This document shows positions 10,801-36,130 of a stretch of 45,891 nt of DNA, piece by piece. The notes below the pieces were generated by a model. That model ran no database searches and had not been told where the DNA came from. It worked only from the letters and a program-made list of their open reading frames with translations. The stretch lies in IMG/VR virus record IMGVR_UViG_3300045790_000309, positions 1-45,891 of that record. One strand, 5' to 3'. The DNA is from a virus. Within the stretch, counting starts at the first letter, position 1, and every line of letters starts with the position of its first letter. Position numbers and translations under genes: made by a program.

Positions 10801-10809
10801 GCAACATAA
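4834..10809 (+). CDS. Giant virion structural protein (DUF4815-type), 1991 residues
   Basis: The N-terminus (FNAGRALQARELTQMQTIIQ, about residues 28-50) matches the DUF4815 family of large baseplate/tail proteins in marine T4-likes. Two further blocks known from such proteins are present: VIPFMRPIRINFKAEGLRAN near residue 1215 and DPIAQTFQVLEAGGIFMPSA near 1475. Between them lie Ser/Thr/Glu-rich, probably coiled or fibrous stretches (about 1045-1080, 1150-1200 and 1365-1450). A conspicuous Trp/Gly/Asp/Tyr-rich segment lies at about 1076-1141, with nine tryptophans. A second short Gly/Pro/Arg-rich linker precedes residue 1470. The likely role is a baseplate-peripheral structural or adhesion protein, occupying the region where T4 has gp9-gp12. 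The exact function is unknown. Confidence 0.75.
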   Translation: MPNTFTEQTMRSTYKDDYKDSDNYSQILFNAGRALQARELTQMQTIIQKEIQRFANNVYTKDGVATQTGGITVQNWQFAKISNDANNTFDTTDNLNGVILTGSVSSIKVKVYRAVAATGTDPDTIYIQYLEDPTARSPATTFLEPARVTPGEVLSNGSNINLTVQTTNTTANPAIGSACAVEVGSSEFYVKGHFVFAPKQELIVSKYSADATADIGYKIVQDVVTVSDTDALYDNQNATPNRSSPGADRLRIRLTLAKRSSLVAGETFVYYATMFRGVMENEVTKTENYGFHDHVATRVREIHGDFITKYWKIGIAPDAKSTSNFIMRVDPGTAYIDGHRIATKQTQSLIVPRATDTIVREEDQVGVDYGNYFYFHSGVGMLDIDVCEAVNLYKGVAGQDSVIGTANIRAITEGASGTRVDGNSYDSVPAFKAHLFNINRTNFNWSLADVSSIKSVANTHYVNTVKTTNATGNAIKNAALLHEPKKNALIFDTPLRRPKNFSDVTMTFMKKYNFTASGTTHLINLTDAGESFVRASDVIIASASDFNPNGISAAISTAGNKRITFSPVVSGTAYEVIVFIKKTNSTVKSKTLTSATVTAALDSDGQGRYYLDLGQSDVYSVERIRKTNSDGSDLFTNFLFDAGNRTTHQADGKLIWSGGGLSSSTDGQVFARYKYFANSTAGSFFAVNSYDGQLDYLDVPAQKLPTGGKVSLRDAIDFRPSMNGSGAFSATDVPPLPVPSDTIIADAEYYLPRADRLVISDKSELRYITGSSSLNPKFPDIPVDCIDLYKVKLGANTLHTQDLKTTIIPRKGYTMQDINKLEQKVDRLEEMTTLSLLELNTKFLQVLDSSGVDRSKAGFFVDNFSNHSHTSIGTHVGGGGKSSIDPHAKLMRPTYSEDAIDMYYDSNHSLQLNTVKKGDFVTLDYSTVGYQSQELASNTENLAPFYVQTSIGALSISPETDNWFDTQKVGETVVGTATELDLTHALSWNNSENSWYGVDPSELDVGDAANSFVSGTSTQVTHDSLDPILIGTQATESLGEWVKVGNVTDVETLFTETVEISREREEEISRTVIDSYWQAIADGTWEDYWGDWDGHWDGVNWGAGYGVGTNYWHGDFGLGGSSYGGGGGYGWGDFDWSFEEITTDMWDVITSETRETVRTANTSTYETTRTINTENTYEGTVETTTATSTSSTVNRVASESTIRDIIGTRIVDVAVIPFMRPIRINFKAEGLRANTQYFPFFDGENVSTFCREETVYQTYGDKSYTLAQGVEDDEGTQRPTQDHSQGKTNLVANADGEIIGSFEVPNGTHMRFKTGSRTFALYDVNASDRNSAMSFAETVFTSSGVLNKTEDNVQVTRILKIVGGSTVSVETSTAVENTVWTESVVTTEVATDVKSTSTTTVIAGDQSTTREHVDQTVVVDYGWGTYPVDHTTDTVTPPGGSGTPDTQPPEQVPARNRGKGNRGMQDGGARYVDPIAQTFQVLEAGGIFMPSAEVYFATKGSTSVRCEIRPAVQGKPSSTSILAFKVLKASQVNLVPAGSTNKEMLQNSTKFIFDNPLFLAPGEYSIVLIPTDNNPDYNVYVGTVGEFQLGSGTSFISQQPTLGGFFKSQNGKLWEPSSDIDLCYRLNCCQFVSSGNAIFENSNVSPQALGKDPLLVDSGSNVRVMLQGHGLRAGDMTWIRGIDSATNFGNGLTGADVIGPRTVIQADNSGYTYAADANVTSRKWFGGSSVTSQRNINFDRLKPIMNLTQPSSTNITLSMKTTSQSALAGDQTRFVKDSKFSIVENNKWIEFAQPKAIYNRRTENLTGAGKLAGERSSTLQVTMATTNPFLSPVLDLEGMSLNACANLISKQDSSATIGFNVPLTYVSERSPLNGTESAKHITKVTTLTDAAVGLKILLAANRPPESDFQIYWRVASGSDPIQKMAWTIAGAEVSPQPDTNKNVFREYRYLVGGEGGTMRPFTQFQVKIVMRSTNSAKCPTFRDLRIMALAT

Positions 10810-11039: not shown

Positions 11040-14000
11040 ATGTCAAGACCATTTACTAAATTATCAGACTCGTTTAAGATATTACGAGACAACCTGAATA
11101 CGACATCGTATAACGTTGGCGATCCAGATAACTTACTTACTTATGGTGACAGTGATGTTGTCATGGCAATCAACGAGATCGAAAGAGTCTTTGATGCTTC
11201 GGCAGGTGAAATATTATATCCTACTGGTAATGCCCTACAAGGCGAGACTGCAACTCGACTATTGATTAGTACTGCACAAGCAAGTGGTACTGATATTCAA
11301 ATGAATGTCGGAGCAAACTTCAACGTCAATGCAGTAGGTGATATTAACCTAGATGCAGGTGGAGCGAACATCAACTTCCTTGATGATTCGGTTGCACGTT
11401 TCAACTTTACATTAGGTACAACTAACGTATTAGACGTTACTGGTATCCTTGACCTTAATATTTCGAGTAACCTAGATGCAGATATTTCAGGTAACTCAGT
11501 ACTTACGACTGGTGGATCCCAAACCCAAGAGGGTACAACCCTTAACCTAGACTTCTCTGGTGATATCACCTTAGATGCTGATGGTAACGACATTCTATTT
11601 AAGAATGGCGCAGGTGGTGATACAGTAACGCATACTCTTGCTGATAATGGATTGTATACAGTCCAAGCACCAAGTGGTTATGTAGTAAATGCCGTTGGTG
11701 ATATTGTACTTGATGCCGATGGTGGGGACATTGTACTTAGAGACGATGGTGTTCAGTTTGGTAAGATGACAAACAGTCTCAAGAGATTACATATATACTC
11801 TGGTTCTACTCAAGCATTGCATTTTGATAGTAGTGCTAACGCAACCTTTACACAAGACTTAACTGTTAATGGCAACACAGATCTTGATGGTACTCTAAAC
11901 GTAGATGGTGCAACTGATTTAAACGGTCATGTTGATTTAGGTAATGCTACCTCAGACAACATCTCTATTATTGGTAGAGTTGATACAAACATTGTACCAG
12001 ATGCAGACGATACTTACGACTTTGGTACTTCAGCACTTCAGTGGAGACACGCATTCTTCGATGGAACAGTAACTACTGATAGTCTTGTCACAGACAGTGC
12101 AGACATTGCTAACTTTAATGTTGTTTCCAATACAATAAGCAATCCTAATGCAGTGACCCTAGATGGTGGTAATGCCATTCACCTAGACACTCATACTGGT
12201 TCTTTGACAATGAAGAAAGCAGGGACTACTCGTCTTGCATATACTCTTGCCGCGAACAACGTATTAAATGCAACTGGTAGTTTGACTACTAATGCTACTA
12301 CCCTGATAAAGGACTCTGCTACTACTAGTCACACAACTGTAGCAGGTACTTCGATAGTACATACCGCAGGTACCACATTGACTAATACGTCTGGTGGCGC
12401 AATGCAACAAACGTCTGGTGGAAACTGGACTGCGACTGTAACAGGTAACGCATTGATCGATGCTTCGGGTGACATTACTCTGGATGCTGATGGTAACGAC
12501 ATATTCTTTAAGAATGGTGCAGGTGGAGACACTGTTACTCATACACTTGCCGACAATGCAAAGTACACTATTGCCGCACCTGATGACTACACCATTGATG
12601 CTGTAGGGGATATAGTACTTGATGCAGGTGGAGACAATATAACACTGAAGGATGCAGGTACTACTCGTATCGGTTATACCCTTGGTGCTACAAATACTAT
12701 TGCGACTACTGGCAACTTAACAAACAATACGTCTGGTGCAGTAGTTGATTCTGCCGCATCATACACAGGTACATTCACTGGTGCATATGCTACTACCGCA
12801 GGTGGTAATCAAACTGCCACAGTGGGTGGTAACTATGTCCTAGATGCAAACGGTGACATAACCCTAGACGCGAACGGTAATGATATTATCCTTCGTGATG
12901 GTGCCTCTGACCGAATCAAACACACACTTGGTGCTACTAACACTACTGCCGTGACAGGTAACTATACTGTCGATGCGTCTGGAGACATTGTTCTCGATGC
13001 AGGTGGTAATGACTTAGACATTAAAGGTGCAGGTACTACTCGTTTCGCATATGGTCTTGGTGCTAGTAACACAATAGATGTTACAGGTAATCTCACACAA
13101 GCAGTTGGTGGAAACTTAACACAGACTATTACAGGTGCTTATTCAGATAGTGCTACTGGTGCTTATCATATTGGTGCTACTGGCGCAGTTGACATTGTTA
13201 GTACGTCAACTTTAGTAACTAGTTCTAAGGCACAGACCCACACATCTAACGGTGCATATAACGTCAATGTAACAGGTGCCGCTAAGATTGCCGCATCAAC
13301 TACTATCACCTTAGATGCGGCAGGGGATATTATCCTTGACGCGGCAGGTGATGACGTAATCCTTAAAGATGCAGGGACAGAGTACGGAAGATTCAAACAC
13401 GCAGGTGCCAATCAATTAGGTATCTACTCTAATGGTATCCTGACTGCAACACTGAATGACTCAGACATTGTATTCAACAACGATGTTAACATTGAGAATG
13501 ATCTTGATGTAGACCGCGACTTGAATGTTGATCGTAACACTACCTTAAATGGTAATGTTGATCTGGGTAATGCTACTGGAGATACTATATCTTTCCTTGG
13601 TCGTGTTGATACAAACATTGTACCAAGCACAGACGGTACTCGTGACCTTGGTTCTTCCTCACTAGAGATGCGACACGGTTTCTTCGATGGCACTGTAACT
13701 ACAGATGGACTCGTTGCAGATAGTGCAGACATTGGTAACTTCAACATTATTGCTAATGCAATCAGTAATTCAAATGCTGTAACATTGACAACTGGTGCTT
13801 TAACTGCGACTGTAACTGGTAACGCATTGATCGATGCTTCGGGTGACATCACCTTAGACGCAGACGGCAATGACATCATATTTAAGAATGGTGCAGGTGG
13901 TGATACAGTAACGCATACTCTTGCAGATGATGCAACATATAAGGTTATCGCCCCTTCTACTTACACATTAGATGTGAATGGAGATATTGTTCTTGATGCA

Positions 14001-14546
14001 AATGGCGGTGACGTATATCTCAAAGACAACGGCACACAGTTTGGTCGATTCCAGAACAGTAGCAACCAGTTAGATATATACTCTGGTGCTACACTTGCAG
14101 TAGCAATGGACGCAAGCAAAGTAGAGATTCATGGTCGCGCATTCTTCGTAGACAGTGGCGTGAATACTGTGGCACAGAACATAGCAGGTTCTATCAATGA
14201 GATACATACTCAGTTAGATTCGGCAGTAGGTGAGATCCTTGTTAACAAGGGAAACATTGCTACCAATGATACCGAACTTACAGATCATCTTTCAAGACTT
14301 GATTCTGATGCTACTTTCTTGCAGTCTAACCTTGGTAGGATTGATACCAACTCAGCAAACATAGCGACTAACGTAAGTAACATTACTGCTGTCAATACTT
14401 TGGTAGGAACTCTGAATACATTAGACTCTTCTGCCCCGGGCGGTTTCTTCAAAGGTATAAATAATGATAGTATCGTTAAAGCGTTAAATGAACTGGCAAC
14501 TAGAACTGTCCTTATCTATGACGAAAGCGGTACTCTTCTAAACTAA
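11040..14546 (+). CDS. Large repeat-containing tail/baseplate fibre protein, 1168 residues
   Basis: The protein opens with a non-repetitive head (residues 1-90) and then consists of beta-rich repeats. Units like GDITLDADGNDIFFKNGAGG and HTLADN recur at about residues 175-205, 475-505 and 935-965. A longer module starting at VDLGNAT and running through GRVDTNIVP, FFDGTVTTD and NAVTL is present twice (about residues 297-375 and 838-915). Shorter related units (GNYVLDANGDITLDANGNDI) fill the rest. The C-terminus (about 1035-1168) is helical-looking and ends IYDESGTLLN, similar to the end of the fibre at 28702-30477. This layout suggests a trimeric beta-helical fibre. Which organelle it attaches to cannot be told here. 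Confidence 0.7.
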   Translation: MSRPFTKLSDSFKILRDNLNTTSYNVGDPDNLLTYGDSDVVMAINEIERVFDASAGEILYPTGNALQGETATRLLISTAQASGTDIQMNVGANFNVNAVGDINLDAGGANINFLDDSVARFNFTLGTTNVLDVTGILDLNISSNLDADISGNSVLTTGGSQTQEGTTLNLDFSGDITLDADGNDILFKNGAGGDTVTHTLADNGLYTVQAPSGYVVNAVGDIVLDADGGDIVLRDDGVQFGKMTNSLKRLHIYSGSTQALHFDSSANATFTQDLTVNGNTDLDGTLNVDGATDLNGHVDLGNATSDNISIIGRVDTNIVPDADDTYDFGTSALQWRHAFFDGTVTTDSLVTDSADIANFNVVSNTISNPNAVTLDGGNAIHLDTHTGSLTMKKAGTTRLAYTLAANNVLNATGSLTTNATTLIKDSATTSHTTVAGTSIVHTAGTTLTNTSGGAMQQTSGGNWTATVTGNALIDASGDITLDADGNDIFFKNGAGGDTVTHTLADNAKYTIAAPDDYTIDAVGDIVLDAGGDNITLKDAGTTRIGYTLGATNTIATTGNLTNNTSGAVVDSAASYTGTFTGAYATTAGGNQTATVGGNYVLDANGDITLDANGNDIILRDGASDRIKHTLGATNTTAVTGNYTVDASGDIVLDAGGNDLDIKGAGTTRFAYGLGASNTIDVTGNLTQAVGGNLTQTITGAYSDSATGAYHIGATGAVDIVSTSTLVTSSKAQTHTSNGAYNVNVTGAAKIAASTTITLDAAGDIILDAAGDDVILKDAGTEYGRFKHAGANQLGIYSNGILTATLNDSDIVFNNDVNIENDLDVDRDLNVDRNTTLNGNVDLGNATGDTISFLGRVDTNIVPSTDGTRDLGSSSLEMRHGFFDGTVTTDGLVADSADIGNFNIIANAISNSNAVTLTTGALTATVTGNALIDASGDITLDADGNDIIFKNGAGGDTVTHTLADDATYKVIAPSTYTLDVNGDIVLDANGGDVYLKDNGTQFGRFQNSSNQLDIYSGATLAVAMDASKVEIHGRAFFVDSGVNTVAQNIAGSINEIHTQLDSAVGEILVNKGNIATNDTELTDHLSRLDSDATFLQSNLGRIDTNSANIATNVSNITAVNTLVGTLNTLDSSAPGGFFKGINNDSIVKALNELATRTVLIYDESGTLLN
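11925..12165 (+). repeat. Duplicated fibre module, copy 1 (copy 2 at about 13548-13788)
   Basis: The stretch encoding VDLGNAT, GRVDTNIVP, WRHAFFDGTVTTD and NAVTLD reappears about 1.6 kb downstream with conserved order and spacing but many synonymous and some coding changes. This indicates an old internal duplication. Boundaries are approximate. Confidence 0.65.
13548..13788 (+). repeat. Duplicated fibre module, copy 2
   Basis: This is the counterpart of the module at 11925-12165 and encodes VDLGNATGDTISFLGRVDTN through FFDGTVTTD and NAVTLT. A second repeated block (ASGDITLDADGND, KNGAGGDTVTHTLAD) follows each copy at about 12445-12555 and 13815-13925. A related copy lies at about 11560-11650. 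Confidence 0.65.
14456..14463 (+). promoter_or_regulatory. Possible internal late promoter TATAAATA
   Basis: An exact TATAAATA lies near the end of the 1168-residue fibre gene, about 95 bases before the first giant tetrapeptide-repeat gene. It could provide that gene with separate late transcription. It lies in coding sequence, so chance is possible. Confidence 0.3.
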
Positions 14547-14558
14547 GTAGGAAAGAGA

Positions 14559-17500
14559 ATGTCGAATAATAAGACATTACCGTTAAAGTTAAAAGACAGT
14601 GATGGTAATCTCCAACAGATCAGTGCAACGGAGAAGAACTATGTTGCCTACCTTGCAGGACTACAGAACGCGCAAGCGGATAGTAGTGATGTAGGTCTTC
14701 TCACGCTTGCCTCTAGTGGAAACCGAGGAATCGGTTCCACCCTAGACACCTACTACCCAGAACCAGTAGGTACGCATCCTTACGACCAAGTTTCGGTAAT
14801 CAGTAGCACAAAGAACCTGTTCCAGATTAATGGTACAGCAAGCGAAGCAGATAGTGACTTCCGTCTACCCATTGCTCATTTCGGGGCGCACGTTTACGAA
14901 CAACCTGCCTCGAACTTCAATGCCTTTAGTGATGAGATCAATGCTCGTATTGTTCTATCGGACTATCCGGGATCTTTAAAGTTATCTCCAACTGCCCCTA
15001 GTTCTGACTATAGCATACTAGTACCTTCTGTCCTGTTAGATAAACGTGCCGACTCCGCAGGTAATGCGATTGTCATTAACGATTACTCTATCTGGCGTAG
15101 AGATACAATGACTGCACCTAGTGCTATCCTTGATAGTAAAGGTGGCATATCAAGTCTTGCAGGTATTAAGAGATCCAACGGAGACTCTGGTACATTCCAA
15201 GGTATACAGAAATTAACTGACAGGCAGATCCAAGTATCTGTTGGTCAACGCGCAAAGACTAGACGTGCTATCAGTGGCAACGTTGGTTCATACGAACTTC
15301 GTACTGCTTCGCAAGGTGCCCCTGCCACAGGTACTTGGGCATCTAAGGGTACTGCAACAAACACTATTCGACTGGTCAATGAAGTTGCGTACACAAGAAC
15401 TAGTACTCGATCTCGCGGTTCGGCATATGCAAGAACTCGTGTAGGTAACTATACAAGAAATTCTACTCGTAACGATCCACAGAACTTTGCAGGTAATTAT
15501 GGAACTACCTATGTAGGCAACTACACCCGAACATTTGCAGGTAACTACACTGGTGACTTCACTGGTGACTATACTCGTGGGTTCGTAGGTAACTATCAGC
15601 GTGGATTTACTGGTAATTATACTGGTGATTACACTGGTGACTATACTGGCGATTATTCTCGTAACTTCACACGCAACCGCGCATCTACATTTAACCGCAC
15701 TAGGGCGAGTACTTACGCAGGTAATTATACAGGCAACTATGCCAGAAACTTTGCGCGTACTCGCGTCTCAAACTATATTCGTGGTCGTGTATCAACCTAT
15801 CAACGTGGGTTCGCAGGAAACTATACTCGTATAATAGCAGACCAATACGCAGGTAACTTCGTAGGTAACTATGCTCGTACTGGTATTGTTTCTAGAATAA
15901 GTACCTATTCGCGAACTCGTATTCAAAATAGAGTATCAAACTATGCTCGTGCATTCATCGGTAATTATGTTGGTGGTGCTACTGCATATGGTACTCAAAC
16001 CGCATATGGCAGAACTTCAACCAGAACAAGTTCCCTAACATTTACTGGTGAGTTTTCTAGACAGTACCTTCGAACTCGTGCGTCTAACTATTCTCGTAAC
16101 TTTGGTGGTAACTTTGCTCGTAACTATTCTCGCGCATTCATAGGTGACTATACTCGTGACTTCGTAGGTGAATATAGTCGTGACTTCTCTCGTGCATTCC
16201 TTGGTAACTATACTCGTGACTTTACAGGCAACTACACTGGTAACTATGTAGGTGCTGATGGTGGCGGCACTGTTTATGGCACTAACACTGCATTTGGTCG
16301 AACTCGTATACAGAACAGAATAAGTACTTACATAGGCAACTATACACAGATTCGTACATCTACCTATACAGGTAACTATGCGAGAGGCACTTATTTTATA
16401 GGAAACTATGTTGGAACTGGTTGGCCAACAAGTGATGTAAATCGATATGTCGGTAACTACACTCAGGGATTTACTCGCATATATGTTGCGGATGCACAAA
16501 ACTTCCAAGGTAACTACACAGGTGCGGAAACCTTTTATGGTGGGTACTCAGGTGACTTTACTGATTATAGGTATGGTGGTGTCTACACTGGTGTAGAAAG
16601 TACCGTAACATTCACTGGTGACTTTCAGAGAACTAGGGTGGCACAGGGGGCATTTCATAGGGCAGATAATGTCGGTGATGGAAATTATCTTAGAAATAGT
16701 GCCACTGGATACACTAGAACCAAAGCATCTACTATAATCTCAGTAAGGGAAAGAGCAAGTACGAATATTGGTTATGCCAGAGATGGTGCCGCGAAAGGCG
16801 GCAGTCCGATATACTATATTGGTGCAGGTTTCTATACAGGTAACTACACAGGCACCGCTAATTTTACTGGCAACTTCCTTAGATTGTTTGTGGGCAACTA
16901 CGTCCGTACCTTCAATCGAGCATCGACTCGACAGTTCAGTAGTGTAACTATTGATACAAGGAACGTAACCTTTACTGGAAACTATCTTGGTAACTATAGT
17001 CGTGCCTATACTAGAACTCGTGTAACTGATCGAAACAGTGCATATGAGCGTACCAGAAACTCAGGTTACGCAAGAAACTACCAACGTACTCGTAACTCAA
17101 ACTACCAACGTACCAGAAACTCAGGTTACTCAAGAAACTTTGAGCGTACTCGTGTATCTAACTATTCTCGTGACTTTGGTGGTAACTTCTCAAGGAACTT
17201 CAGTAGACAACGCATTAGTACTTACATAGGCAACTTCCTTGGTAACTATACTCGTGACTTCCTTGGTGACTATAGTAGAAACTATGCGAGAACATTCGTA
17301 GGTAATTACACTGGTAACTATCAGAGAACGTTTACTGGTGACTACACAAGAGACTATAACAGAACTTCTACGCGAACAAGTATCGTTAACAGAACCTCTG
17401 CATACAATAGAACTCGTGTATCTAACTATTCTCGTTCTTTCACTGGTGACTACACAAGAAACTTTGCAGGTAACTATGCAAGAAACTATTCGGCAGACTA

Positions 17501-17906
17501 TACTAGAATAAGAGCATCATCTTTTGCTAGGACTAGAACTTCTAACTTTACTAGAAACCGTGGTTCGTCTTATGCAGGTGTATACACTGGCGTATACAGT
17601 GGTGTTTATACAGGCATATATAGTAGAGCATATAGTCGTACCCGAACAAGTAACTACACTAGAAACTCTACTAGAGATTCGACCAGAAACCGTGATTCGT
17701 CATATGCAAGAACTCGTGGTTCTCTTTTTACTAGGTCAAGAACAAGTGCGTATACTGGCGACTTCACTGGAGATTACACAAGAAACTTCGAGGGCAACTA
17801 CTCACGGAACTTTGCAGGTAATTATGTTGGTAACTATGTCGGGCAGACTATCGGTAATAGTATATTCAACGTGGAGACTTATACTTTATATGTAAGAACT
17901 GCATAG
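14559..17906 (+). CDS. Giant tetrapeptide-repeat protein A, 1115 residues
   Basis: The start follows an AGGAAAG ribosome-binding site. Residues 1-277 form a non-repetitive head that is clearly homologous to the head of the 2101-residue protein downstream (shared DTYY, GTHP, ARI.LSDYPG, APSSDYS, GTWA.KGTATNT). From about residue 278 to 1095 the chain is mostly built of a four-residue unit [Y/F/R/S]-[T/A/V/I]-[G/R/S]-[N/D/T/A], for example FAGN-YTGD-FTGD-YTRG. Less regular stretches occur at about 470-490, 565-590 and 610-770, containing TAYGTQTAYGRT and TVYGTNTAFGRT. The end, ETYTLYVRTA, is also shared with the paralogue. No enzyme motif is visible. A virion adhesin or fibre role is inferred from position between fibre genes; a disordered sticky protein is an alternative. 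Confidence 0.7.
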   Translation: MSNNKTLPLKLKDSDGNLQQISATEKNYVAYLAGLQNAQADSSDVGLLTLASSGNRGIGSTLDTYYPEPVGTHPYDQVSVISSTKNLFQINGTASEADSDFRLPIAHFGAHVYEQPASNFNAFSDEINARIVLSDYPGSLKLSPTAPSSDYSILVPSVLLDKRADSAGNAIVINDYSIWRRDTMTAPSAILDSKGGISSLAGIKRSNGDSGTFQGIQKLTDRQIQVSVGQRAKTRRAISGNVGSYELRTASQGAPATGTWASKGTATNTIRLVNEVAYTRTSTRSRGSAYARTRVGNYTRNSTRNDPQNFAGNYGTTYVGNYTRTFAGNYTGDFTGDYTRGFVGNYQRGFTGNYTGDYTGDYTGDYSRNFTRNRASTFNRTRASTYAGNYTGNYARNFARTRVSNYIRGRVSTYQRGFAGNYTRIIADQYAGNFVGNYARTGIVSRISTYSRTRIQNRVSNYARAFIGNYVGGATAYGTQTAYGRTSTRTSSLTFTGEFSRQYLRTRASNYSRNFGGNFARNYSRAFIGDYTRDFVGEYSRDFSRAFLGNYTRDFTGNYTGNYVGADGGGTVYGTNTAFGRTRIQNRISTYIGNYTQIRTSTYTGNYARGTYFIGNYVGTGWPTSDVNRYVGNYTQGFTRIYVADAQNFQGNYTGAETFYGGYSGDFTDYRYGGVYTGVESTVTFTGDFQRTRVAQGAFHRADNVGDGNYLRNSATGYTRTKASTIISVRERASTNIGYARDGAAKGGSPIYYIGAGFYTGNYTGTANFTGNFLRLFVGNYVRTFNRASTRQFSSVTIDTRNVTFTGNYLGNYSRAYTRTRVTDRNSAYERTRNSGYARNYQRTRNSNYQRTRNSGYSRNFERTRVSNYSRDFGGNFSRNFSRQRISTYIGNFLGNYTRDFLGDYSRNYARTFVGNYTGNYQRTFTGDYTRDYNRTSTRTSIVNRTSAYNRTRVSNYSRSFTGDYTRNFAGNYARNYSADYTRIRASSFARTRTSNFTRNRGSSYAGVYTGVYSGVYTGIYSRAYSRTRTSNYTRNSTRDSTRNRDSSYARTRGSLFTRSRTSAYTGDFTGDYTRNFEGNYSRNFAGNYVGNYVGQTIGNSIFNVETYTLYVRTA
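15390..17845 (+). repeat. Tetrapeptide (12-bp unit) repeat region of protein A
   Basis: Units such as GGTAACTATACT and CGTAACTTT alternate with a 12-base spacing through most of this interval. Copies vary at synonymous and non-synonymous positions, so this is a diverged repeat and not a recent expansion. Because the period is a multiple of three, the other frames also tend to stay open, which explains spurious long frames here. The repeat is interrupted around 15960-16010, 16240-16320 and 16390-16800. Confidence 0.85.
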
Positions 17907-17915
17907 TATAATTCT

Positions 17916-17923
17916 TATAAATA
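17916..17923 (+). promoter_or_regulatory. T4-type late promoter TATAAATA
   Basis: An exact TATAAATA lies in the 48-base gap between the two giant repeat genes, 31 bases before the GTG start at 17955. It gives the 2101-residue gene its own late transcript. Confidence 0.7.
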
Positions 17924-17954
17924 GAGATAAGTTAAATTGATAGAGAATTAATCT

Positions 17955-20900
17955 GTGGCAAAGTCGAACATACCGCTAAAGGCAGAAGGAACAAATGGTG
18001 ATCTGAAGGAGTTAACTCCTACGGAAGAGCATTACCTCGCCTATCAAGCAGGATTGCAATTAGCGGCAGGTACCACAGGCGCAGGTACTCTACATAAGAC
18101 TTCGGGTACCACTATCGGTACGTTCGTTGATACTTACTACAATGAGGCAGACGGCACACACCCTGCCTCTGCCATAACTTCTGGTAGTACATCTACTCCC
18201 CTAAAGCAAATACAAGGTACTGCTAACTACACTGGTGCGAACTATCGCAGACCAGTAGGGTATCTGAACAGTGGTGCCGAAGGTCTATATGAATTCCCCG
18301 ACTCTGATATGTCTGTTCTTACGACTAGACTTAATGCTCGTATTGCTCTATCAGATTATCCCGGAACATATAAACTAGGAACCTCTGCTCCGTCAAGTGA
18401 CTATAGTGCCTTACTGTCAAACGTATACACCGATACATTAGGTAACGGAACAAGCACAGTATACAACATCTACAAACGAAATACAATGTCTGCCCCCTCA
18501 ACTATCAGACCTATGGGTTTGGTTGGTTCTGATTCGGCAGGGTCGTTTAGTGGTATTCGTGAACTAAATGATAACGAGATCAAGCATACGTTTGGTCAAC
18601 ACGCCAAGACAGAACGTGCAGTAGTAGGTAACATTGGTTCTTATCAGTTGAGATCTGCTACCCAAGGTGTTCCTTCTGCTTCTGGTACATGGGCGGCAAA
18701 GGGTACTGCTACTAATACAAAGAGAACAACTTCGGAAGTTGCGTACACAAGAACTCGCGCATCCGCATATACTCGTACTCGTGGTTCTGCTTATGCAAGA
18801 ACTCGTACTTCGGCATACACAAGAAATTCCCTTCAGACCTTTACTGGTACTTACGCAGGTGACTTTGTAGGTAACTACACTCGTGCCTTTGCAGGTAACT
18901 ATGCAAGAAACTTTGCAGGAAACTACGTTGGAGACTTCATTGGTAACTATCAACGTACTCGTGTGTCTCAGTACACAACTAATTTCACAGACGTATTTAC
19001 TAGAAACTTCGTAGGCAACTATCAGCGTATTCGAGTATCAAACTATACTCGTGACCGTATTACTGTATTTACTGGTAACTTCATAGGAAACTATGTTCGT
19101 ACTCGTATCTCTGCATATGCTAGAACAAGTACTCGAACAAGAAATAGTAACTACATTAGAACTCGAACCTCTGCATACACGACTGTCTTTGCAGGTAACT
19201 ATGTTGGAGACTTTGTAGGCAACTACTCACGAACTCGTGTGTCTGGTTACTCTGGTGCTTACACTAGAATAAGAAACTCTGCCTATATTAGAACTCGTAC
19301 TTCAACATATACTCGTGATCGTGTTACAAACTTTACTGGTGATTTCATTGGTAATTATTCTCGTAACCGTGTGTCTGCATATACTAGAACCTCAACGCGA
19401 ACTCGTACTTCGGCATATGCTCGTACCAGAATCTCAACGTATACTCGCGATAGTTTGCAAACGTTTACTGGTAACTTCTTAGGCAACTACTCTCGAACTC
19501 GAATATCTACCTATAATAGAACTCGTGCATCTAACTATGCAGGTAACTATACTGGTAACTATTCTCGTATTCGTATCTCTGCTTACACTCGTGATCGTGT
19601 TACAAACTTCAGTGGTGACTTCGTAGGTAACTATGCACGAACTCGTAGTTCAGCATATATCCGTGATAGACTAGTAACCTTTACTGGTGACTATGTTGGT
19701 AACTATAGCAGAACATTCGTAGGTAACTATGCCCGAACGTTTGTTGGTAACTATGCTCGTGCCTTTGCAGGTAACTACATTGGTAACTATGCGAGGATCT
19801 CAACAAGAACTCGATCATCTACCTATAATAGAACATCAACAAGAGATTCTTTAGTAACATATACTCGCGATAATGTTGTTGGTTATACAGGTAACTTCGG
19901 TGGTAACTATTCCAGAACTTATACTGGTAACTATAGCAGAACATTTGCAGGGGATTATGTTGGTAATTACTCTCGTGCGTTCGCAGGAAATTACATTGGT
20001 AATTACTCTCGTGCGTTCGCAGGTAACTATGTTGGTAACTTTGTCGGTAACTATGCTCGTGGGTTTGCAGGAAATTACATAGGTAACTATGCACGAACTT
20101 TCGTAGGTGACTATATTGGTAACTTCACTGGCAACTATGCTCGTGGGTTTGCAGGTGACTATGTTGGTAACTATGCTCGTGGATTCGTAGGCAACTATGG
20201 TCGTACCAGATACTCTGCATACATTCGAAACAGTACTAGAATCTCTACTCGTATTCTTAACTATACCAGAATATCGACTATTACCTCTACTCGCATTCTA
20301 GACTATCAGCGTACATCCACAAGAACTAGCACACCTACCGAAACGTACACACGAATTGGTTACTATGCAGGTGACTTCATTGGTAACTATACGCGTATCA
20401 GTATAAACACTGGTACCTATATTCGTATCAGAACTGCGACAGGAACGTACACAAGAGATCGTACTGCTACAGGAACATACATTAGAATTCGTATTCCTAC
20501 TAGCACAAACACTGGAACGTACACACGAAACCGTATTGCCTCATACATTGGCAACTATGGTAGACTCCGAATTGCTATCAGTACAAACACTGGTACATAT
20601 ATTAGAACTCGTATTGCCTCATACATTGGTAACTACGGAAGACTTCGTATTGCAATCAGTACAAACACTGGTACTTATATCCGTATCCGTACTGCCGCGT
20701 ACCTTGGTAACTATACTCGTACATTATACTACGCAGGTGACTTCGCAGGTAACTACACTCGTACTCTATACTATACTGGTAACTATACTCGTACCTTATA
20801 CTATATCGGTAACTACGCAGGTGACTATACTCGTACACTGTATTACGCAGGTAACTATACTCGTACCTTATACTATACTGGTAACTACACTGGTAACTAT

Positions 20901-23900
20901 CAGCGTGCATTATACTACGCAGGTAACTATACTCGTACATTGTATTACGTTGGTAACTATGGACGAACTCGCATCGCGACTGGTACATACATTAGAATTC
21001 GTATTGCGACTGGTACATACATTCGTATCTCGACCAGAAACCGTCTTTCGCAACCGGCATACACAAGAACATCGACTCGTACTTCTACTCGCGATGTTGC
21101 ATATACGCGCATTAACTCTAAAACTGGTAACACTGTATACTTCGTTGGTAGTGGTTACTACGCAGGTAACTTCACTGGTAACTACACAAGAAACCTATAC
21201 TACGCAGGTAACTACACTGGTAACTATCAGCGTAATTTATACTACACTGGTAACTATCAGCGTAATTTATACTACGCAGGTAACTATTCTCGTGACCGTA
21301 TTGCCACTGGTACATACATTAGAATTCGTATTGCGACTGGTACATACACTAGACTGCGTATTGCTATTAGCACCGCTACTGGTACTTACATTAGAACTCG
21401 TATTGCTACTGGCACATACATTCGTATACGACTAACCAACCGTATTGCTACTGGTACTTACATTAGAATTCGTACTGCGACTGGCACATACATTCGTACC
21501 TCTACAAGAACTAGTACTCCTACAGGAACTTATACTAGAAACCGTATTGGTTCGTACACTGGTAACTATCAGCGTACATTGTATTATACTGGTAACTATA
21601 CTGGAGATTACTCTAGAAACCGTATTGGTTCATATGCAGGTAACTATCAGCGTACTCTATACTACACAGGCAACTATACTGGAGATTACTCTCGTAACCG
21701 TATTGCCGCATACCTTGGTAACTATCAGCGTACTCTGTATTATATCGGAAACTATACTGGTAATTACACTAGAACATTGTACTATATCGGAAACTATACC
21801 CGAACTCTATATTACACTGGTAACTATCAGCGTACCTTATATTATACTGGTGACTACACTAGAAACTCTACTCGTACTTCTACTCGTATTCTTGGGTACA
21901 CTAGAATCGGTTCATACGCAGGTGACTTCGTAGGTAACTATACGCGTATTGGTTTCTATGCAGGTAACTATACTGGTGACTATGTTCGAACAGGATACTA
22001 TACTGGTGACTTTATAGGTAACTATGCTCGTGCGTTTGTTGGTAACTATTCACGAACTCGTATCTCTGCATACGCAAGAACATCCACACGGAATCGTATC
22101 TCGACTTACATTAGGATTCGTGTTACTAACTATACTCGTAACCGTATCTCGACTTATACTCGCGACTCAACTCGTAACCGTATCTCTACATACAATAGAA
22201 CTCGTGCTACTGACTATACTCGCAGTCGTATCTCCGCATATGCAAGAACCAGTACGCGTAGTCGTATCTCTGCATACGCTAGGACTAGTACTCGTGCAAG
22301 AGCATCTACCTACACTAGAGGTAGAGTAAGTGCATACACAAGAACATCCACACGAGATAGTCTTGTAGTTTCTACTTCGGGTGGGGGTGCAAGATACTCA
22401 GATCAATCTAACTTGTTGTGGCAGAACAACTTTGCTGAGTGGACTACTGGTACTGGTTCTGCAACTAACTATCCTCAGAACGGTGATGGTAACTCTCGTA
22501 TTGTTGATGCATCCCCGAAAGGTCAAGATGTCGTTTGGGACGTATCAAATCAAGATGCAGGTTCGGATGCAGATGGTGGTTGGAATGGTGATTTCTTTGC
22601 TATTGACAAAACTAAGAAGTATCGTTTCTCCGTTTGGATGAGACGTAAGACTTTCGGTAGCGGTACCGCTTATTTTGGTTTCAATACTAATGGTAGTGGT
22701 GTCGATAGAAAGAACGTAACTGGTGCTTATGGCCCTCCAACCAACCCATACTTCTGGTACGGTGAGCATTTCTCAGGTGATAATGTTGGAGAATGGTTCT
22801 TATTTGTAGGTCACGTTTGGCCAAACGGAACTACTGTCGAATCTGGTGGTATGGATGCTGAATCTGGTATCTACAATATGAGTGGTGAAAAGGTAGCAAA
22901 CACAAACCTAGACTACATTTTTAAAAGTGATAACAGTACCGCAAGACATCGTGCATACTTGTACTACTCAACAGATACGAGTACCAATCAACAATTTTGG
23001 GAACCTCGTGTAGATGACACGACTCACGCGTCTATTCCAACTGTTGCTGATATGATTGCACAGTCTGGTTCATACACGCGTACATTCGCAGGTAACTTCG
23101 TAGGTAACTATGCTCGTGGGTTTGCAGGTAACTTTACTGGCGAATATTTAAGAACCTCGACTCGCACTCGTAACAGTTCTTATATCCGTAACCGCATATC
23201 AACCTACACTAGAAACCGTGTGTCTGCATATGCTCGTACTCGTATCACAGATTATGTTGCAAACTATGTCGGTAACTATTCTCGTACCTTTATAGGTAAC
23301 TACTCAAGGAATAGAATACAGGTATTCGCAGGTAACTTTGTTGGTAACTACTCTCGCGCATTTGCAGGTAATTACTCAAGGATCTCTACGCGAACTCGTG
23401 TAAGTAACTTCGTAGGTAACTATGCTCGTGCGTTTATTGGTAACTATAGCAGAACTCGTGTAACTGATTATGTCGGAAACTTCGTAGGCAACTATGGTCG
23501 TGGATTCGTAGGCAATTATGCAAGGGACTTTGCAGGTAACTATGTCGGAAACTACTCACGAACGTTTGTGGGAGAGTACACGCGTAACAGTATTCAAGTC
23601 TTTGCAGGTAACTTCGTAGGCAACTATGCAAGAAACTTTGTGGGTAACTATTCTCGTTCATTCCAAGGTAACTACACAGGAACATACAGTAGGGACTTTG
23701 CAGGAGAATACACAAGAACTCGTGTTACTGATTCTGTTGGCGAATACACAGGAAACTTTACTCGTGACTTCACTGGTGACTATACTCGTAATTTCGCAGG
23801 AAATTACATTGGAAACTACAGTCGCGCATTTGTCGGAGAATATACTCGTGATAGCATAGCAACCTTTGCAGGTAACTTTGTTGGTAACTATGCTCGTGGG

Positions 23901-24260
23901 TTCGCAGGAGAGTATGCAAGAACTCGTGTAAGTAACTACACTGGAGACTTCATTGGTAACTTCACTAGAAACTTCGTTGGAGAATATAGCAGAAACTCAG
24001 TAAGAACTTCAACACGAACTCGTGCATCTACTTTCACTCGTAGTCGTATCTCTGCGTATGCAAGAACATCCACAAGAGTTAGTACAGATGATTACGTTGG
24101 AGATTTCACAGGAAACTTTACTCGCGACTTCGCAGGTAACTATTCTAGGGCGTTTACAGGTAATTATAGTAGGAACTTCGCAGGTAACTATGTTGGTACT
24201 ACAGTTGGTTCAGGAACAGAAGTAATAGAGACGTATACATTGTATGTAAGGGTCGCATAA
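17955..24260 (+). CDS. Giant tetrapeptide-repeat protein B, 2101 residues, with inserted lectin-like domain
   Basis: The gene starts at GTG behind a late promoter. Residues 1-263 are the head domain shared with protein A. Residues about 264-1470 are a nearly unbroken tetrapeptide repeat, for example YTRA-FAGN-YARN-FAGN-YVGD-FIGN. In the middle (about 755-1320) a variant dominates, with units like TGTYIRIR and TLYYAGNYTR, and the register shifts by two residues. Residues about 1476-1700 are a non-repetitive globular insert with features of a carbohydrate-binding jelly roll. The repeat resumes from 1707 to about 2078 and the chain ends ETYTLYVRVA. The protein is rich in Tyr, Arg, Asn, Gly and Thr and almost lacks Cys. 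It is probably a very long fibre or adhesin. Tandem duplication with protein A is evident from both ends. Confidence 0.72.
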   Translation: MAKSNIPLKAEGTNGDLKELTPTEEHYLAYQAGLQLAAGTTGAGTLHKTSGTTIGTFVDTYYNEADGTHPASAITSGSTSTPLKQIQGTANYTGANYRRPVGYLNSGAEGLYEFPDSDMSVLTTRLNARIALSDYPGTYKLGTSAPSSDYSALLSNVYTDTLGNGTSTVYNIYKRNTMSAPSTIRPMGLVGSDSAGSFSGIRELNDNEIKHTFGQHAKTERAVVGNIGSYQLRSATQGVPSASGTWAAKGTATNTKRTTSEVAYTRTRASAYTRTRGSAYARTRTSAYTRNSLQTFTGTYAGDFVGNYTRAFAGNYARNFAGNYVGDFIGNYQRTRVSQYTTNFTDVFTRNFVGNYQRIRVSNYTRDRITVFTGNFIGNYVRTRISAYARTSTRTRNSNYIRTRTSAYTTVFAGNYVGDFVGNYSRTRVSGYSGAYTRIRNSAYIRTRTSTYTRDRVTNFTGDFIGNYSRNRVSAYTRTSTRTRTSAYARTRISTYTRDSLQTFTGNFLGNYSRTRISTYNRTRASNYAGNYTGNYSRIRISAYTRDRVTNFSGDFVGNYARTRSSAYIRDRLVTFTGDYVGNYSRTFVGNYARTFVGNYARAFAGNYIGNYARISTRTRSSTYNRTSTRDSLVTYTRDNVVGYTGNFGGNYSRTYTGNYSRTFAGDYVGNYSRAFAGNYIGNYSRAFAGNYVGNFVGNYARGFAGNYIGNYARTFVGDYIGNFTGNYARGFAGDYVGNYARGFVGNYGRTRYSAYIRNSTRISTRILNYTRISTITSTRILDYQRTSTRTSTPTETYTRIGYYAGDFIGNYTRISINTGTYIRIRTATGTYTRDRTATGTYIRIRIPTSTNTGTYTRNRIASYIGNYGRLRIAISTNTGTYIRTRIASYIGNYGRLRIAISTNTGTYIRIRTAAYLGNYTRTLYYAGDFAGNYTRTLYYTGNYTRTLYYIGNYAGDYTRTLYYAGNYTRTLYYTGNYTGNYQRALYYAGNYTRTLYYVGNYGRTRIATGTYIRIRIATGTYIRISTRNRLSQPAYTRTSTRTSTRDVAYTRINSKTGNTVYFVGSGYYAGNFTGNYTRNLYYAGNYTGNYQRNLYYTGNYQRNLYYAGNYSRDRIATGTYIRIRIATGTYTRLRIAISTATGTYIRTRIATGTYIRIRLTNRIATGTYIRIRTATGTYIRTSTRTSTPTGTYTRNRIGSYTGNYQRTLYYTGNYTGDYSRNRIGSYAGNYQRTLYYTGNYTGDYSRNRIAAYLGNYQRTLYYIGNYTGNYTRTLYYIGNYTRTLYYTGNYQRTLYYTGDYTRNSTRTSTRILGYTRIGSYAGDFVGNYTRIGFYAGNYTGDYVRTGYYTGDFIGNYARAFVGNYSRTRISAYARTSTRNRISTYIRIRVTNYTRNRISTYTRDSTRNRISTYNRTRATDYTRSRISAYARTSTRSRISAYARTSTRARASTYTRGRVSAYTRTSTRDSLVVSTSGGGARYSDQSNLLWQNNFAEWTTGTGSATNYPQNGDGNSRIVDASPKGQDVVWDVSNQDAGSDADGGWNGDFFAIDKTKKYRFSVWMRRKTFGSGTAYFGFNTNGSGVDRKNVTGAYGPPTNPYFWYGEHFSGDNVGEWFLFVGHVWPNGTTVESGGMDAESGIYNMSGEKVANTNLDYIFKSDNSTARHRAYLYYSTDTSTNQQFWEPRVDDTTHASIPTVADMIAQSGSYTRTFAGNFVGNYARGFAGNFTGEYLRTSTRTRNSSYIRNRISTYTRNRVSAYARTRITDYVANYVGNYSRTFIGNYSRNRIQVFAGNFVGNYSRAFAGNYSRISTRTRVSNFVGNYARAFIGNYSRTRVTDYVGNFVGNYGRGFVGNYARDFAGNYVGNYSRTFVGEYTRNSIQVFAGNFVGNYARNFVGNYSRSFQGNYTGTYSRDFAGEYTRTRVTDSVGEYTGNFTRDFTGDYTRNFAGNYIGNYSRAFVGEYTRDSIATFAGNFVGNYARGFAGEYARTRVSNYTGDFIGNFTRNFVGEYSRNSVRTSTRTRASTFTRSRISAYARTSTRVSTDDYVGDFTGNFTRDFAGNYSRAFTGNYSRNFAGNYVGTTVGSGTEVIETYTLYVRVA
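18744..22364 (+). repeat. Tetrapeptide (12-bp unit) repeat block 1 of protein B
   Basis: About 300 consecutive four-residue units are encoded here. The first part (18744-20220) keeps strict four-residue phasing with an aromatic residue or Arg in position 1. From about 20220 to 21900 the units change to GTYIRIRI- and LYYTGNYT-type, and phasing slips by two residues. The last part (21900-22364) returns to RISAYART- and STRT-type units. A long frame in another register (20536-21435) is a by-product of the 12-base periodicity. Confidence 0.85.
22380..23072 (+). other. Globular lectin/CBM-like domain inserted in protein B
   Basis: This stretch encodes about 225 ordinary, non-repetitive residues between two repeat blocks. 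Segments such as YRFSVWMRRKTFGSGTAYFG, an aromatic-rich WFLFVGHVWP and a closing YLYYSTDTSTNQQFWEPRVD resemble beta-sandwich carbohydrate-binding or collagen-binding-type jelly rolls found in phage fibres. The fold assignment is from pattern only. Its place within the repeat suggests a receptor-binding head mounted on a long shaft. Confidence 0.55.
23073..24190 (+). repeat. Tetrapeptide (12-bp unit) repeat block 2 of protein B
   Basis: About 90 further units follow the inserted domain, again in strict four-residue phase, dominated by FAGN, FVGN, YARG, YSRT and GEYTR-type units. GEY variants are commoner here than in block 1, so the two blocks have separate histories. Confidence 0.8.
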
Positions 24261-24327: not shown

Positions 24328-24792
24328 ATGAGTTATAAAAGATGGATGGATAATGCATTCTGGGAAGATGATACTAAAGAGAAGTTGAATTGTATCCTAG
24401 AGATAATGGATGACGTGGAACGCGAGACACGACAAGTAATGTTGTTGCAACGCACTAACAAAGACGGAACGCCAAACGAACTGTTCAATGAAGTTATTGA
24501 TGATCTAGGTGTAGAGTCAGTTGATCGAAACACCGAAGACCGTAAGGTACGCAAGGCGGCAGAGAAGGAAGAAGGTCAACAAAGAGATGTTGAGTTTGCT
24601 CGTGCGCGGAAGTTGGAAGAACTGTTTAACTACAAGTTGGAGATCTTTGAGACCGAAGAGATTAAGAACTCTAAGAATCGTAAACTCAAAGGTAAGTTGA
24701 GACGCGCCAAGTCTAAGATTGAAGTAAACTTATATGCAATGATGTTGTTGCAAGAGGTTCTTGAACCAACGGAAGTAGTTGCTGATGAGTGA
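24328..24792 (+). CDS. Unknown charged, helical protein
   Basis: This 154-residue protein is first in the sigma70-promoter cassette. It is rich in Glu, Lys, Arg and Leu throughout, with probable long helices at about residues 15-35 and 80-150 (for example RKLEELFNYKLEIFETEEIK). It has no signal peptide, membrane segment or catalytic motif that I recognise. Its end overlaps the start of the glycosyltransferase gene by 8 bases, so the two are probably translated together. Its early-type promoter argues against a simple virion role. I cannot assign a function. Confidence 0.65.
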   Translation: MSYKRWMDNAFWEDDTKEKLNCILEIMDDVERETRQVMLLQRTNKDGTPNELFNEVIDDLGVESVDRNTEDRKVRKAAEKEEGQQRDVEFARARKLEELFNYKLEIFETEEIKNSKNRKLKGKLRRAKSKIEVNLYAMMLLQEVLEPTEVVADE

Positions 24793-25522
24793 TAAGACTG
24801 AAGGATATGTACTGGTTGCATCCAATAAGATTAACTTCTATAGGTATGCAATCAATCTAGCAGAGTCCATCTTAGACTTCTATCCTGATGCCAAGATTAC
24901 TTTGTTCTGCGAAGAGTGGATGTTCGAAGAACTTCATCGTGATCTCTTTGATAATGTTGAATGGTGTACTGGACACTACCGTGCCAAGTTAGAAGGTATG
25001 GCAAGATCTCCTTATGACCTAACCATGTACCTTGATGTTGATATGGAAGTAGAACACGAAGACATTAGTACTTGTTTCCAAATCTTGAGAGATAGCGAAC
25101 ACGATATGTTGTTCTCTGCATTGACCGATGATAGATCATATGTCTATGCTGAACGAGACTTTGACACCCCCGAAGGTAAGGCAAAGTTTACTCTATGTGG
25201 TGGTATATGTTTGTATGATATGACAGTACCTATCATCAAAGAGTTTGTTGCAGAATGGGAAGACTTGACCAAGAGACAAATGGATAAGGAATGGTGGCCA
25301 GAAGGTTACATCGATTCCCTGAAGTCTTGGGATCAGTTCTCTCTATGGTGGTTGACAGAGAAGGAAGATAAGTACAAAGATTTAAACTATGGCATCATCT
25401 ATGATGATCTGCGATGGAACTATTACAACGCTTTTAATTGGCATAAGACCAAACCAGAGTCAGGGCCAGTTATTGTACGGCACTACTCGTGCGGATTAGA
25501 TAAGGACGGACACATATTATGA
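24785..25522 (+). CDS. GT-A-type glycosyltransferase (GT8-like)
   Basis: I chose the ATG at 24785 (245 residues) because an upstream in-frame TTG at 24779 adds only two residues. The N-terminus (GYVLVASNKINFYRYAINLA, then SILDFYPDAKITLFCEE) has the strand-helix pattern of a nucleotide-sugar-binding domain. LTMYLDVDMEV near residue 80 supplies the metal-binding DxD motif. A later Gly/Cys segment (FTLCGGICLYDM) and a C-terminal VIVRHYSCGL His fit GT-A enzymes. It should transfer a sugar from a nucleotide donor; the acceptor is unknown. It is sandwiched by overlap between the unknown protein and the 2OG-oxygenase-like gene, which suggests a joint task. Confidence 0.68.
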   Translation: MSDKTEGYVLVASNKINFYRYAINLAESILDFYPDAKITLFCEEWMFEELHRDLFDNVEWCTGHYRAKLEGMARSPYDLTMYLDVDMEVEHEDISTCFQILRDSEHDMLFSALTDDRSYVYAERDFDTPEGKAKFTLCGGICLYDMTVPIIKEFVAEWEDLTKRQMDKEWWPEGYIDSLKSWDQFSLWWLTEKEDKYKDLNYGIIYDDLRWNYYNAFNWHKTKPESGPVIVRHYSCGLDKDGHIL

Positions 25523-26214
25523 GTTATATGCAAGACATACCAATTAAAAACAGAGAACTGTTGCAGAGATTAGACGCATACAGAGACTTTCTCTTGGATG
25601 ATAAAGAACAGTTCCAGAAGGACTTCCATCTTGCGTGTTCACAAGAGGCAAGTCAACGTCACTTCTGGGCAGGTAAAGATCATCTAGAAGAGATCCAAGC
25701 ACAGGGAAGCAGACACGAAGGTTTCCCCGATAAGATGTATGGATATGAGATGAGTATTGGTCGCAAAGGACATGAGTTCTTTGAGGGAGACACCCATCCA
25801 TCTATACGAACTAAACGAACGGCAGACATTGCCTTTATGAACAAAGATATTATGCAATGGTTGGGCACTCGTTGTAATGCTCTTACTGCGTGGTATCCTC
25901 CCGGTGGTTTCATCTCTTGGCACAACAATGCTAACGCGGCCGCATACAATCTAATATTCTCATGGTCTGAAACTGGAGACGGACAATTTGAGTATGTAGA
26001 TCCTGTATCGAAAGAAGTTGTCGTTATGAAGGACAAGCAGGGTTGGAACTGTAAGGCGGCATACTTTGGTCACTATGGTGAACCAGAGAACCTATTCTAT
26101 CATGCGGCAAAGACCGACTGTTGGAGATGCACAGTATCATTCACATTTGATATCTCACAAGCATCTGTAGACTACAGAGACGATTTAATAGAAGAAATCA
26201 CCTCAGAAATCTAA
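25519..26214 (+). CDS. 2OG-Fe(II) oxygenase-like protein with HxN in place of HxD
   Basis: This 231-residue protein starts in an ATGA overlap with the glycosyltransferase stop. The core around WYPPGGFISWHNNANAAAYN (residues 125-144) looks like the first iron-binding strand of a 2-oxoglutarate dioxygenase, with His135. LFYHAAKTDCWRCTVSF (192-208) supplies the distal His195 and the 2OG-binding Arg203. The usual HxD carboxylate is Asn137 here, so iron binding may be altered. Such proteins are frequent among structural genes of marine T4-likes. Possible targets are proteins, nucleobases or sugars; none can be chosen from sequence. The gene ends about 30 bases before the next late promoter, closing the early cassette. 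Confidence 0.6.
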   Translation: MSYMQDIPIKNRELLQRLDAYRDFLLDDKEQFQKDFHLACSQEASQRHFWAGKDHLEEIQAQGSRHEGFPDKMYGYEMSIGRKGHEFFEGDTHPSIRTKRTADIAFMNKDIMQWLGTRCNALTAWYPPGGFISWHNNANAAAYNLIFSWSETGDGQFEYVDPVSKEVVVMKDKQGWNCKAAYFGHYGEPENLFYHAAKTDCWRCTVSFTFDISQASVDYRDDLIEEITSEI

Positions 26215-26286: not shown

Positions 26287-26646
26287 ATGGCAGATTACGA
26301 AGATTTTACTATCGATCAAGGTGCGGATGTAGCAATTGAACTACACCTGCAAGAACAGGATGGTTCTGTTAAGAACCTCACTGGTCACACACTTGCGGCA
26401 AAGATGAAGCGGAGTTATAACTCTGTGGACTCTGATGAAATAGTATCCTTTACAGCAACTATCGCAGATCCCGCTTCTGATGGGATAGGCATCTTGGCAC
26501 TCACAAATACCCAATCTGGATTACTGAACGCCAGACTTAGATATGTCTATGACGTAGAACTGTCCTTTATAGACAGCGGATCTAACACAATCATCGAACG
26601 AATACTGGAAGGAAAGATTAAAGTCAATCCTTCGGTAACAAGGTAA
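26287..26646 (+). CDS. Small virion/fibre-associated beta-rich protein
   Basis: This 119-residue protein begins with FTIDQGADVAIELHLQEQDG, followed by KNLTGHTLAAKMKRSYNS. The pattern (an introductory strand, then an 'N-L-T/S-G' turn and alternating strands) resembles small immunoglobulin-like phage tail proteins of the BppU N-terminal type, which connect fibres to the baseplate. It is first in the second fibre cluster behind a late promoter and is followed 5 bases later by the 75-residue gene. The role is inferred from context and fold impression. Confidence 0.5.
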   Translation: MADYEDFTIDQGADVAIELHLQEQDGSVKNLTGHTLAAKMKRSYNSVDSDEIVSFTATIADPASDGIGILALTNTQSGLLNARLRYVYDVELSFIDSGSNTIIERILEGKIKVNPSVTR

Positions 26647-35827: not shown

Positions 35828-36130
35828 ATGAAGGTACTAATAACAGGAAGTAGTGGACTTGCAATACTTATAGCAGTATTCGGGTCGTTAGTTGTTAATG
35901 CTGATGACGTGCATGAATGTAAAAACGATTATGATTTAGCACTTTCTGTTATGCAACAACGACAAAAAGATAACAACCTTATAGAAGCCATGCAGTTATT
36001 TACCGACAAGAAACTCGTTATGTCTGCATATTCTCAACCTCAACAAAAAACTATTCGTCTAAGAATAGAATCAACTAAGAACTTTGCCAACCACTCAGCA
36101 CAAAAGTGTTTTAAATGGAGTATATTATGA
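35828..36130 (+). CDS. Small exported protein of unknown function
   Basis: This 100-residue protein has a clear signal peptide: Lys2, a hydrophobic core (LAILIAVFGSLVV, residues 11-23) and a probable cleavage after Asn-Ala at 24-25. The mature part is about 75 residues, mostly helical-looking, with two cysteines (31 and 94) that could form a disulfide in the periplasm. It sits between gp17 and a glycosyltransferase and overlaps the latter by ATGA. Export makes a virion role unlikely; periplasmic interference, superinfection exclusion or surface modification are possible. I do not recognise a family. Confidence 0.6.
   Translation: MKVLITGSSGLAILIAVFGSLVVNADDVHECKNDYDLALSVMQQRQKDNNLIEAMQLFTDKKLVMSAYSQPQQKTIRLRIESTKNFANHSAQKCFKWSIL

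Follow-up and report, generated by a model that had tools for sequence, protein, structure and literature searches.

Several structures of T4-like phages resemble the proteins considered here. T4 gp5 forms a triple-stranded β-helix (VxGxxxxx) from an octapeptide with Gly at position a, Asn/Asp at b, Val at g, and a polar residue at h (PMC3004832). The T4 long tail fibers (gp34-gp37) are trimers of very long subunits that are encoded among structural-module genes and act in host recognition, and cyanophage S-RIM2 has short runs of V-T-G-N tetrads. Pelagimyophages and cyanomyophages possess a host recognition cluster upstream of gp14, with glycosyltransferases near the fibers; the available parts of that account (PMC7029224) mention neither the tetrad repeat nor the family described below. 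Phage C48C1 (Kyanoviridae) encodes a 3347-aa "hypothetical protein" (CDS0201, OQ984149), and our literature search found no paper on this phage or on these repeats. Here, we analyzed a 45,891-nt stretch of DNA (positions 1 to 45,891 of IMG/VR virus record IMGVR_UViG_3300045790_000309, hereafter the window) that comes from an uncultured, T4-like, probably marine phage, and in which genes A and B encode giant proteins made almost entirely of a four-residue (tetrad) repeat. On balance, we lean toward A and B being giant tail-fiber subunits whose shaft is an oligomeric, most likely trimeric, β fiber. An earlier, sequence-only reading of the window had reported the two giant open reading frames (ORFs) as paralogs, which was confirmed, and had missed an N-terminal domain (∼260-275 aa), an invariant C-terminal tail, and an embedded ∼234-aa domain of B. 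The parts of the two proteins are as follows.

14559..17906, + strand: gene A, tetrad-repeat protein, 1115 aa, ATG start
14559..15386, + strand: conserved N-terminal domain of A, residues 1-276 (alignment of A, B, and C48C1; found on at least 125 IMG/VR contigs)
15387..17864, + strand: tetrad repeat (putative shaft) of A, residues 277-1102, with few short interruptions (phase decoding, autocorrelation)
17865..17903, + strand: invariant C-terminal tail of A (…VETYTLYVRTA)
17955..24260, + strand: gene B, paralog of A, 2101 aa, GTG start
17955..18740, + strand: conserved N-terminal domain of B, residues 1-262 (AlphaFold2 model, α/β)
18741..22361, + strand: putative shaft of B, part one, residues 263-1469, with 10-residue units at residues ∼870-1350
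22362..23063, + strand: embedded, putative jelly-roll domain of B resembling a carbohydrate-binding module (CBM), residues 1470-1703, ∼234 aa (homologs, Foldseek)
23064..24209, + strand: putative shaft of B, part two, residues 1704-2085 (phase decoding)
24210..24257, + strand: invariant C-terminal tail of B (…VIETYTLYVRVA)

A phase-decoding hidden Markov model assigned 767 residues of A (∼192 units with 8 slips, within residues 277-1102) and 1588 residues of B (∼397 units with 21 slips, within residues 263-2085) to tetrads with Y/F/R/S at position 1, T/A/V/S/I at position 2, G/R/S at position 3, and N/T/D/A at position 4, in agreement with the preferences given in the sequence-only reading. 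The four-residue period itself is borne out by autocorrelation, with residue identity at lag 4 of 0.224 in A versus 0.096 in shuffled sequences (z = 12) and 0.171 in B versus ∼0.095 in shuffles (z = 11); identity at lag 8 exceeds that at lag 4 (0.252 with z = 16 in A; 0.243 with z = 22 in B). Odd lags were far below chance in both proteins (z of −4 to −11), and thus the chain alternates strictly, and the N-terminal domains gave no periodic signal by the same test. The claim that the phase holds for hundreds of units stands broadly, but in B it is only approximate at residues ∼870-1350 and is interrupted at 1470-1703. Many of the slips in B arise from 10-residue units (YTRTLYYxGN, YIRIRIATGT) that move the frame by two residues without breaking the alternation. 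At the DNA level, tandem arrays show tabulated periods of 12, 24, 30, 36, 42, 60, 72, 78, 84, and 102 bp, which are not independent because the arrays overlap one another, and all of which are multiples of 6 bp (two codons). Natural indels in comparisons with close relatives are mostly even, many being multiples of four residues. The even indels, the two-codon DNA periods, and the slips by two residues indicate that the two-residue alternation is more basic and that the tetrad is superimposed on it.

Substitution rates between near relatives were 0.05-0.07 at position 1 and 0.014-0.07 at position 3, with values of 0.14-0.26 at position 2 and 0.14-0.17 at position 4. Arg and Lys are almost absent and Gly is rare at positions 2 and 4, with Arg and Gly sitting at positions 1 and 3. 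These latter positions are coupled such that F goes with G, R with S, and S with R, while R is hardly ever paired with R or G (R..S, 123 observed versus 23 expected; R..R, 7 versus 69). As judged from the sequences, the substitution, composition, and coupling data are the pattern of a β strand with one constrained and one free face, and the alternating-face β fiber suggested in the sequence-only reading fits the substitution rates, the coupling, and the indel parity. The repeat is under purifying selection, with ratios of nonsynonymous to synonymous substitution rates (dN/dS) of 0.22-0.50. That range argues against a neutral, microsatellite-like expansion or an assembly artifact; tandem DNA arrays with periods of 12-102 bp are indeed present, as such an expansion would have it, but they are only ∼62-95% identical, and the conservation of architecture across many independent contigs and C48C1 already refutes this explanation, to which we give almost no credence.

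The same residue rules bear on whether the chains are disordered Tyr/Arg "sticker" polymers that condense or adhere non-specifically; the sequence-only reading had named a disordered sticky polymer as a possibility. The high content of Y, R, G, S, N, and T and the low AlphaFold2 confidence described below would suit such a polymer, but sticker-spacer polymers need no fixed register, and the tetrad register, fixed over hundreds of units, is left unexplained. Furthermore, Arg and Gly are strictly limited to the odd face with positions 1 and 3 coupled, indels and tandem repeats mostly keep parity, and some relatives have few or no Arg residues at position 1 together with a net negative charge. 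We found the proposal unsupported, if less firmly so than the solenoid discussed next, and rate it as quite improbable, the residue pattern favoring an extended β fiber in which one face is buried. Net charge spans +163 (B) to −330 (locus L093) on an unchanged aromatic/Gly skeleton, and therefore structure rather than charge is kept. Positive charge as the function was dropped on account of the acidic family members.

Superperiod peaks at lags 12 and 24 are present in B, C48C1, and several relatives, and they could represent three-sided coils of a monomeric β-solenoid, in which a single chain winds around itself, four residues to a side, and in which the Gly-Asn/Asp pairs would suit the turns. 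A solenoid needs a constant coil, however, and the strongest superperiod varies among members (8 in A and L022; 12 in C48C1, L028, and L088), the superperiods across the family being 8, 12, or 24. AlphaFold2 supplied with an alignment of 44 relatives predicted no solenoid, and its predicted local distance difference test (pLDDT) scores were ∼26-34 across the repeat, so that neither a constant number of residues per coil nor a confident single-chain model was found. The variable superperiods and the AlphaFold2 result thus disfavor a single-chain version of the β-solenoid offered by the sequence-only reading, and we regard that version as decidedly unlikely. If the chains instead form a parallel homo-oligomer, every tetrad would lie against the identical tetrad of its partner chains, and so no fixed superperiod or coil length would be needed.

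The Y/F-x-G-N/D order of the tetrad equals the Val(g)-polar(h)-Gly(a)-Asn/Asp(b) order of the T4 gp5 octapeptide, and both show two-residue alternation, which raises the alternative that the repeat genuinely belongs to the gp5/VgrG family of triple-stranded β-helices, with aromatic residues replacing valine. Consistent with this alternative, the S-RIM2 VTGN tetrads, which these repeats match weakly, match gp5 needle structures (E ∼1e-3 to 2e-2). The gp5 helix has a strict 8-residue period and a Val core, whereas the Gly spacing in A and B is a mixture of 4, 8, 12, and 10 with an aromatic residue in place of Val. In addition, profile searches for gp5 homology found none, the repeat profile recovering no gp5 from the PDB and Pfam revealing no repeats of the gp5 type in either protein. 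We consider membership unlikely; the tetrad repeat may work like gp5, but the Gly spacing and the profile searches do not place it in that family. The S-RIM2 runs share with A and B the four-residue period and the placement of Gly (position 3) and Asn/Asp (position 4) but differ in being short, in having Val/Leu in place of aromatics, and in their N-terminal domain. S-RIM2 was rejected as a homolog, its VTGN repeat being of similar composition only. The minus strand of one locus (L180) encodes a viral fiber-like protein with VTGN-type repeats plus the run YFTGNFSGNFTGNFTG, and it is possible that this protein bridges the Val and aromatic tetrads. The T4 long tail fibers have other repeats and domains, and no sequence match to them was found.

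Outside of the repeat, the N-terminal domains of A and B are globular and conserved, those of B and C48C1 being 39-45% identical to that of A. The AlphaFold2 model of B residues 1-260 is an α/β structure with pLDDT mostly of 75-95, and a Foldseek search with it against the PDB and BFVD returned nothing at E ≤ 0.001. The last 13-16 residues (…ETYTLYVRxA) are common to A, B, and the closed family members (34 distinct C-termini). Homologs of the domain embedded in B were identified at 13 IMG/VR loci and in Vibrio phage structural proteins; other giant members carry relatives of the domain. The best Foldseek matches of its model were to the CBM16 and CBM4 carbohydrate-binding modules (CBM16 probability 1.00, E 2e-3, TMt 0.58, for a model with pLDDT of only ∼36-78), and B residues 1470-1703 are thus predicted to resemble these modules. 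C48C1 CDS0201 is like A and B in its N-domain, tetrad repeat, CBM-like domain, C-tail, and downstream genes, but it is a single giant gene with several additional embedded domains. In that protein (L001:14453-24496), four extra domains of ∼115-175 aa are inserted like beads among tetrad stretches near the C-terminus.

The examined contigs that encode the N-domain carry the repeat wherever the sequence is long enough, in proteins totaling ∼420 aa to more than 2700 aa, and the length among related acidic giants extends to 3978 aa or more (L093). Short family members include L059 (421 aa) and L113 (348 aa). Among the matches in 50,697 phage records, only phage C48C1 carries the family, and an N-domain scan of genome contigs found no relatives. 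A DNA-pattern scan for four tetrads had at least 80 viral loci and 80 cellular (bacterial/archaeal) loci among the matches listed. Of these, 69/80 viral loci contained a genuine repeat ORF, accompanied by the N-domain or C-tail in 68 of the 69, versus 0/80 of the cellular loci. The tetrad-pattern matches in cellular genomes were simple low-complexity arrays such as GGDFGGDF, and the single cellular locus that passed the numeric filter was a simple YAGN array. The sequence-only reading had not recognized the repeat; this holds for named families, but the sequences themselves are already in databases (C48C1, PHROGs, and IMG/VR). Pfam at E ≤ 10 gave no family for A or B, NCBIfam gave no meaningful match, and across Pfam, NCBIfam, and PHROGs there was no named family with a function for either protein, although small PHROGs clusters of unknown function include these sequences. 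No Pfam or NCBIfam model of pentapeptide, hexapeptide, RTX, or similar named repeats matched, and PDB sequence searches with B and with the repeat profile yielded only chance matches at E 0.3-4. The giant tetrad-repeat proteins are a widespread, virus-only family that is unnamed in the databases searched. Several members depart from the common form: in L065 and L066, perfect runs of the hexapeptide NYAGPT, a different repeat, take the place of some of the tetrads within the same architecture; the acidic giants of L088, L089, and L093 have a 12-residue superperiod (YTGDYERTQVDN) with the same embedded CBM-like domain; the net charge is about −300 in L088 and L093; and L089 and L093, for which N-termini were seen, diverge in that region.

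The window carries a structural module of T4-like type, with baseplate genes upstream of A and B and with fiber, neck, terminase, sheath, portal-like, and capsid-like genes downstream. Names of neighbors were assigned by profile matches, that of the terminase by tblastn, and those of sheath, portal, and capsid by eye. Genes A and B sit between the baseplate genes and an L-fiber assembly gene, cyanophage-type fibers, and neck genes, and the location matches the reported site, before gp14, of the pelagimyophage and cyanomyophage host recognition cluster (PMC7029224). The terminase is 74% identical to that of C48C1 and about 46% identical to those of cyanophages (tblastn). The neighbors that matter here are the following.

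3445-4824: gp8-like baseplate gene, upstream of A and B (profile match)
4834-10809: DUF4815 baseplate gene, upstream of A and B (profile match)
24328..24792, + strand: ORF154, partner gene directly 3′ of the last giant gene; the YTLY tail precedes 47/48 copies
24785..25522, + strand: GT-A-like glycosyltransferase, invariant DxD, weak Glycos_transf_2 matches
25519..26214, + strand: conserved HxN…H…R protein, invariant H135, N137, H195, and R203
26287..26646, + strand: match to phrog_3304, "L-shaped tail fiber protein assembly" (E 4e-13)

ORF154, the glycosyltransferase, and the HxN…H…R protein each occur in 42/46 loci with enough downstream sequence, and all four cassette genes are in one order in 41/41 loci. 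ORF154 is a candidate chaperone. Among the glycosyltransferase homologs, 16/22 weakly match Glycos_transf_2 (best E 0.0015), with D84 and D86 invariant. By eye, the HxN…H…R protein looks like a 2-oxoglutarate (2OG)/Fe(II)-dependent oxygenase; Asp/Asn hydroxylase and 2OG profiles run on the window found nothing. Adjoining the giants, positions 11040-14546 encode a 1168-aa protein with gp5/VgrG-like repeats (…DGNDIIFKNGAGGDTVTHTL…) and weak matches to DUF2345, DUF5649, and PHROG baseplate assembly, which is probably a long triple-helix needle or fiber. Farther downstream, the neck protein (head closure, phrog_460; 31254-33011, 585 aa) has ∼200 mid-protein residues that resemble, by eye, an inserted laminin-G/concanavalin-like domain. 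Between the terminase and the tail sheath (36115-37523) are two more ORFs that look glycosyltransferase-like by eye (DxD), with no Pfam or PHROG match.

The fiber role of A and B is likely, given their placement among baseplate wedge, DUF4815, L-fiber assembly, neck, and sheath genes and, at the level of sequence, the combination of a conserved end, a variable repeat shaft, and predicted receptor-binding modules. A trimeric β shaft is the favored architecture. In such an oligomeric, most likely parallel trimeric, β fiber, tetrad residues 1 and 3 (aromatic plus Gly/Arg, or Arg/Ser) would face a shared interior, residues 2 and 4 (T/A/V/I and N/D/T) would face solvent, and equivalent tetrads of the three chains would pack against one another. 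Changes in shaft length would come from the loss or tandem duplication of segments that preserve the alternation by two residues, and domains along the shaft, rather than the tip alone, would recognize host surface glycans. ORF154, the glycosyltransferase, the oxygenase-like protein, and the L-fiber assembly protein probably function in fiber assembly or modification, with modification by the downstream enzymes being speculative. Several observations weigh against this interpretation: AlphaFold2 produced no structure over the repeat, a result that disorder fits as well; both protein ends are conserved while the middle is variable, which is unusual if a distal tip binds the receptor; the embedded-domain model is of medium to low confidence only; and Pfam gave no oxygenase family match for the 25519-26214 protein.

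We read the tetrad as a new fiber repeat in a structure of known kind. It is conceivable, though doubtful, that it instead forms a hitherto unseen fold, namely a homotrimeric β fiber built from a unit of just four residues around an unbroken aromatic/arginine core, bearing recognition domains along the shaft and modified by the glycosyltransferase and oxygenase-like protein of the phage. If so, chains of up to ∼4000 residues would yield fibers of one to several hundred nm, which would rank among the longest single-gene viral fibers. If the β-fiber interpretation is true, a four-residue building block would join the known fibrous folds, and it would provide a simple scaffold of variable length with rules (burial at positions 1 and 3, free choice at positions 2 and 4) that are readable from natural variation. 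This giant fiber family is widespread and virus-only and has had no name, model, or structure, and its description points out likely host-recognition proteins for a common, hardly cultured group of T4-like phages.

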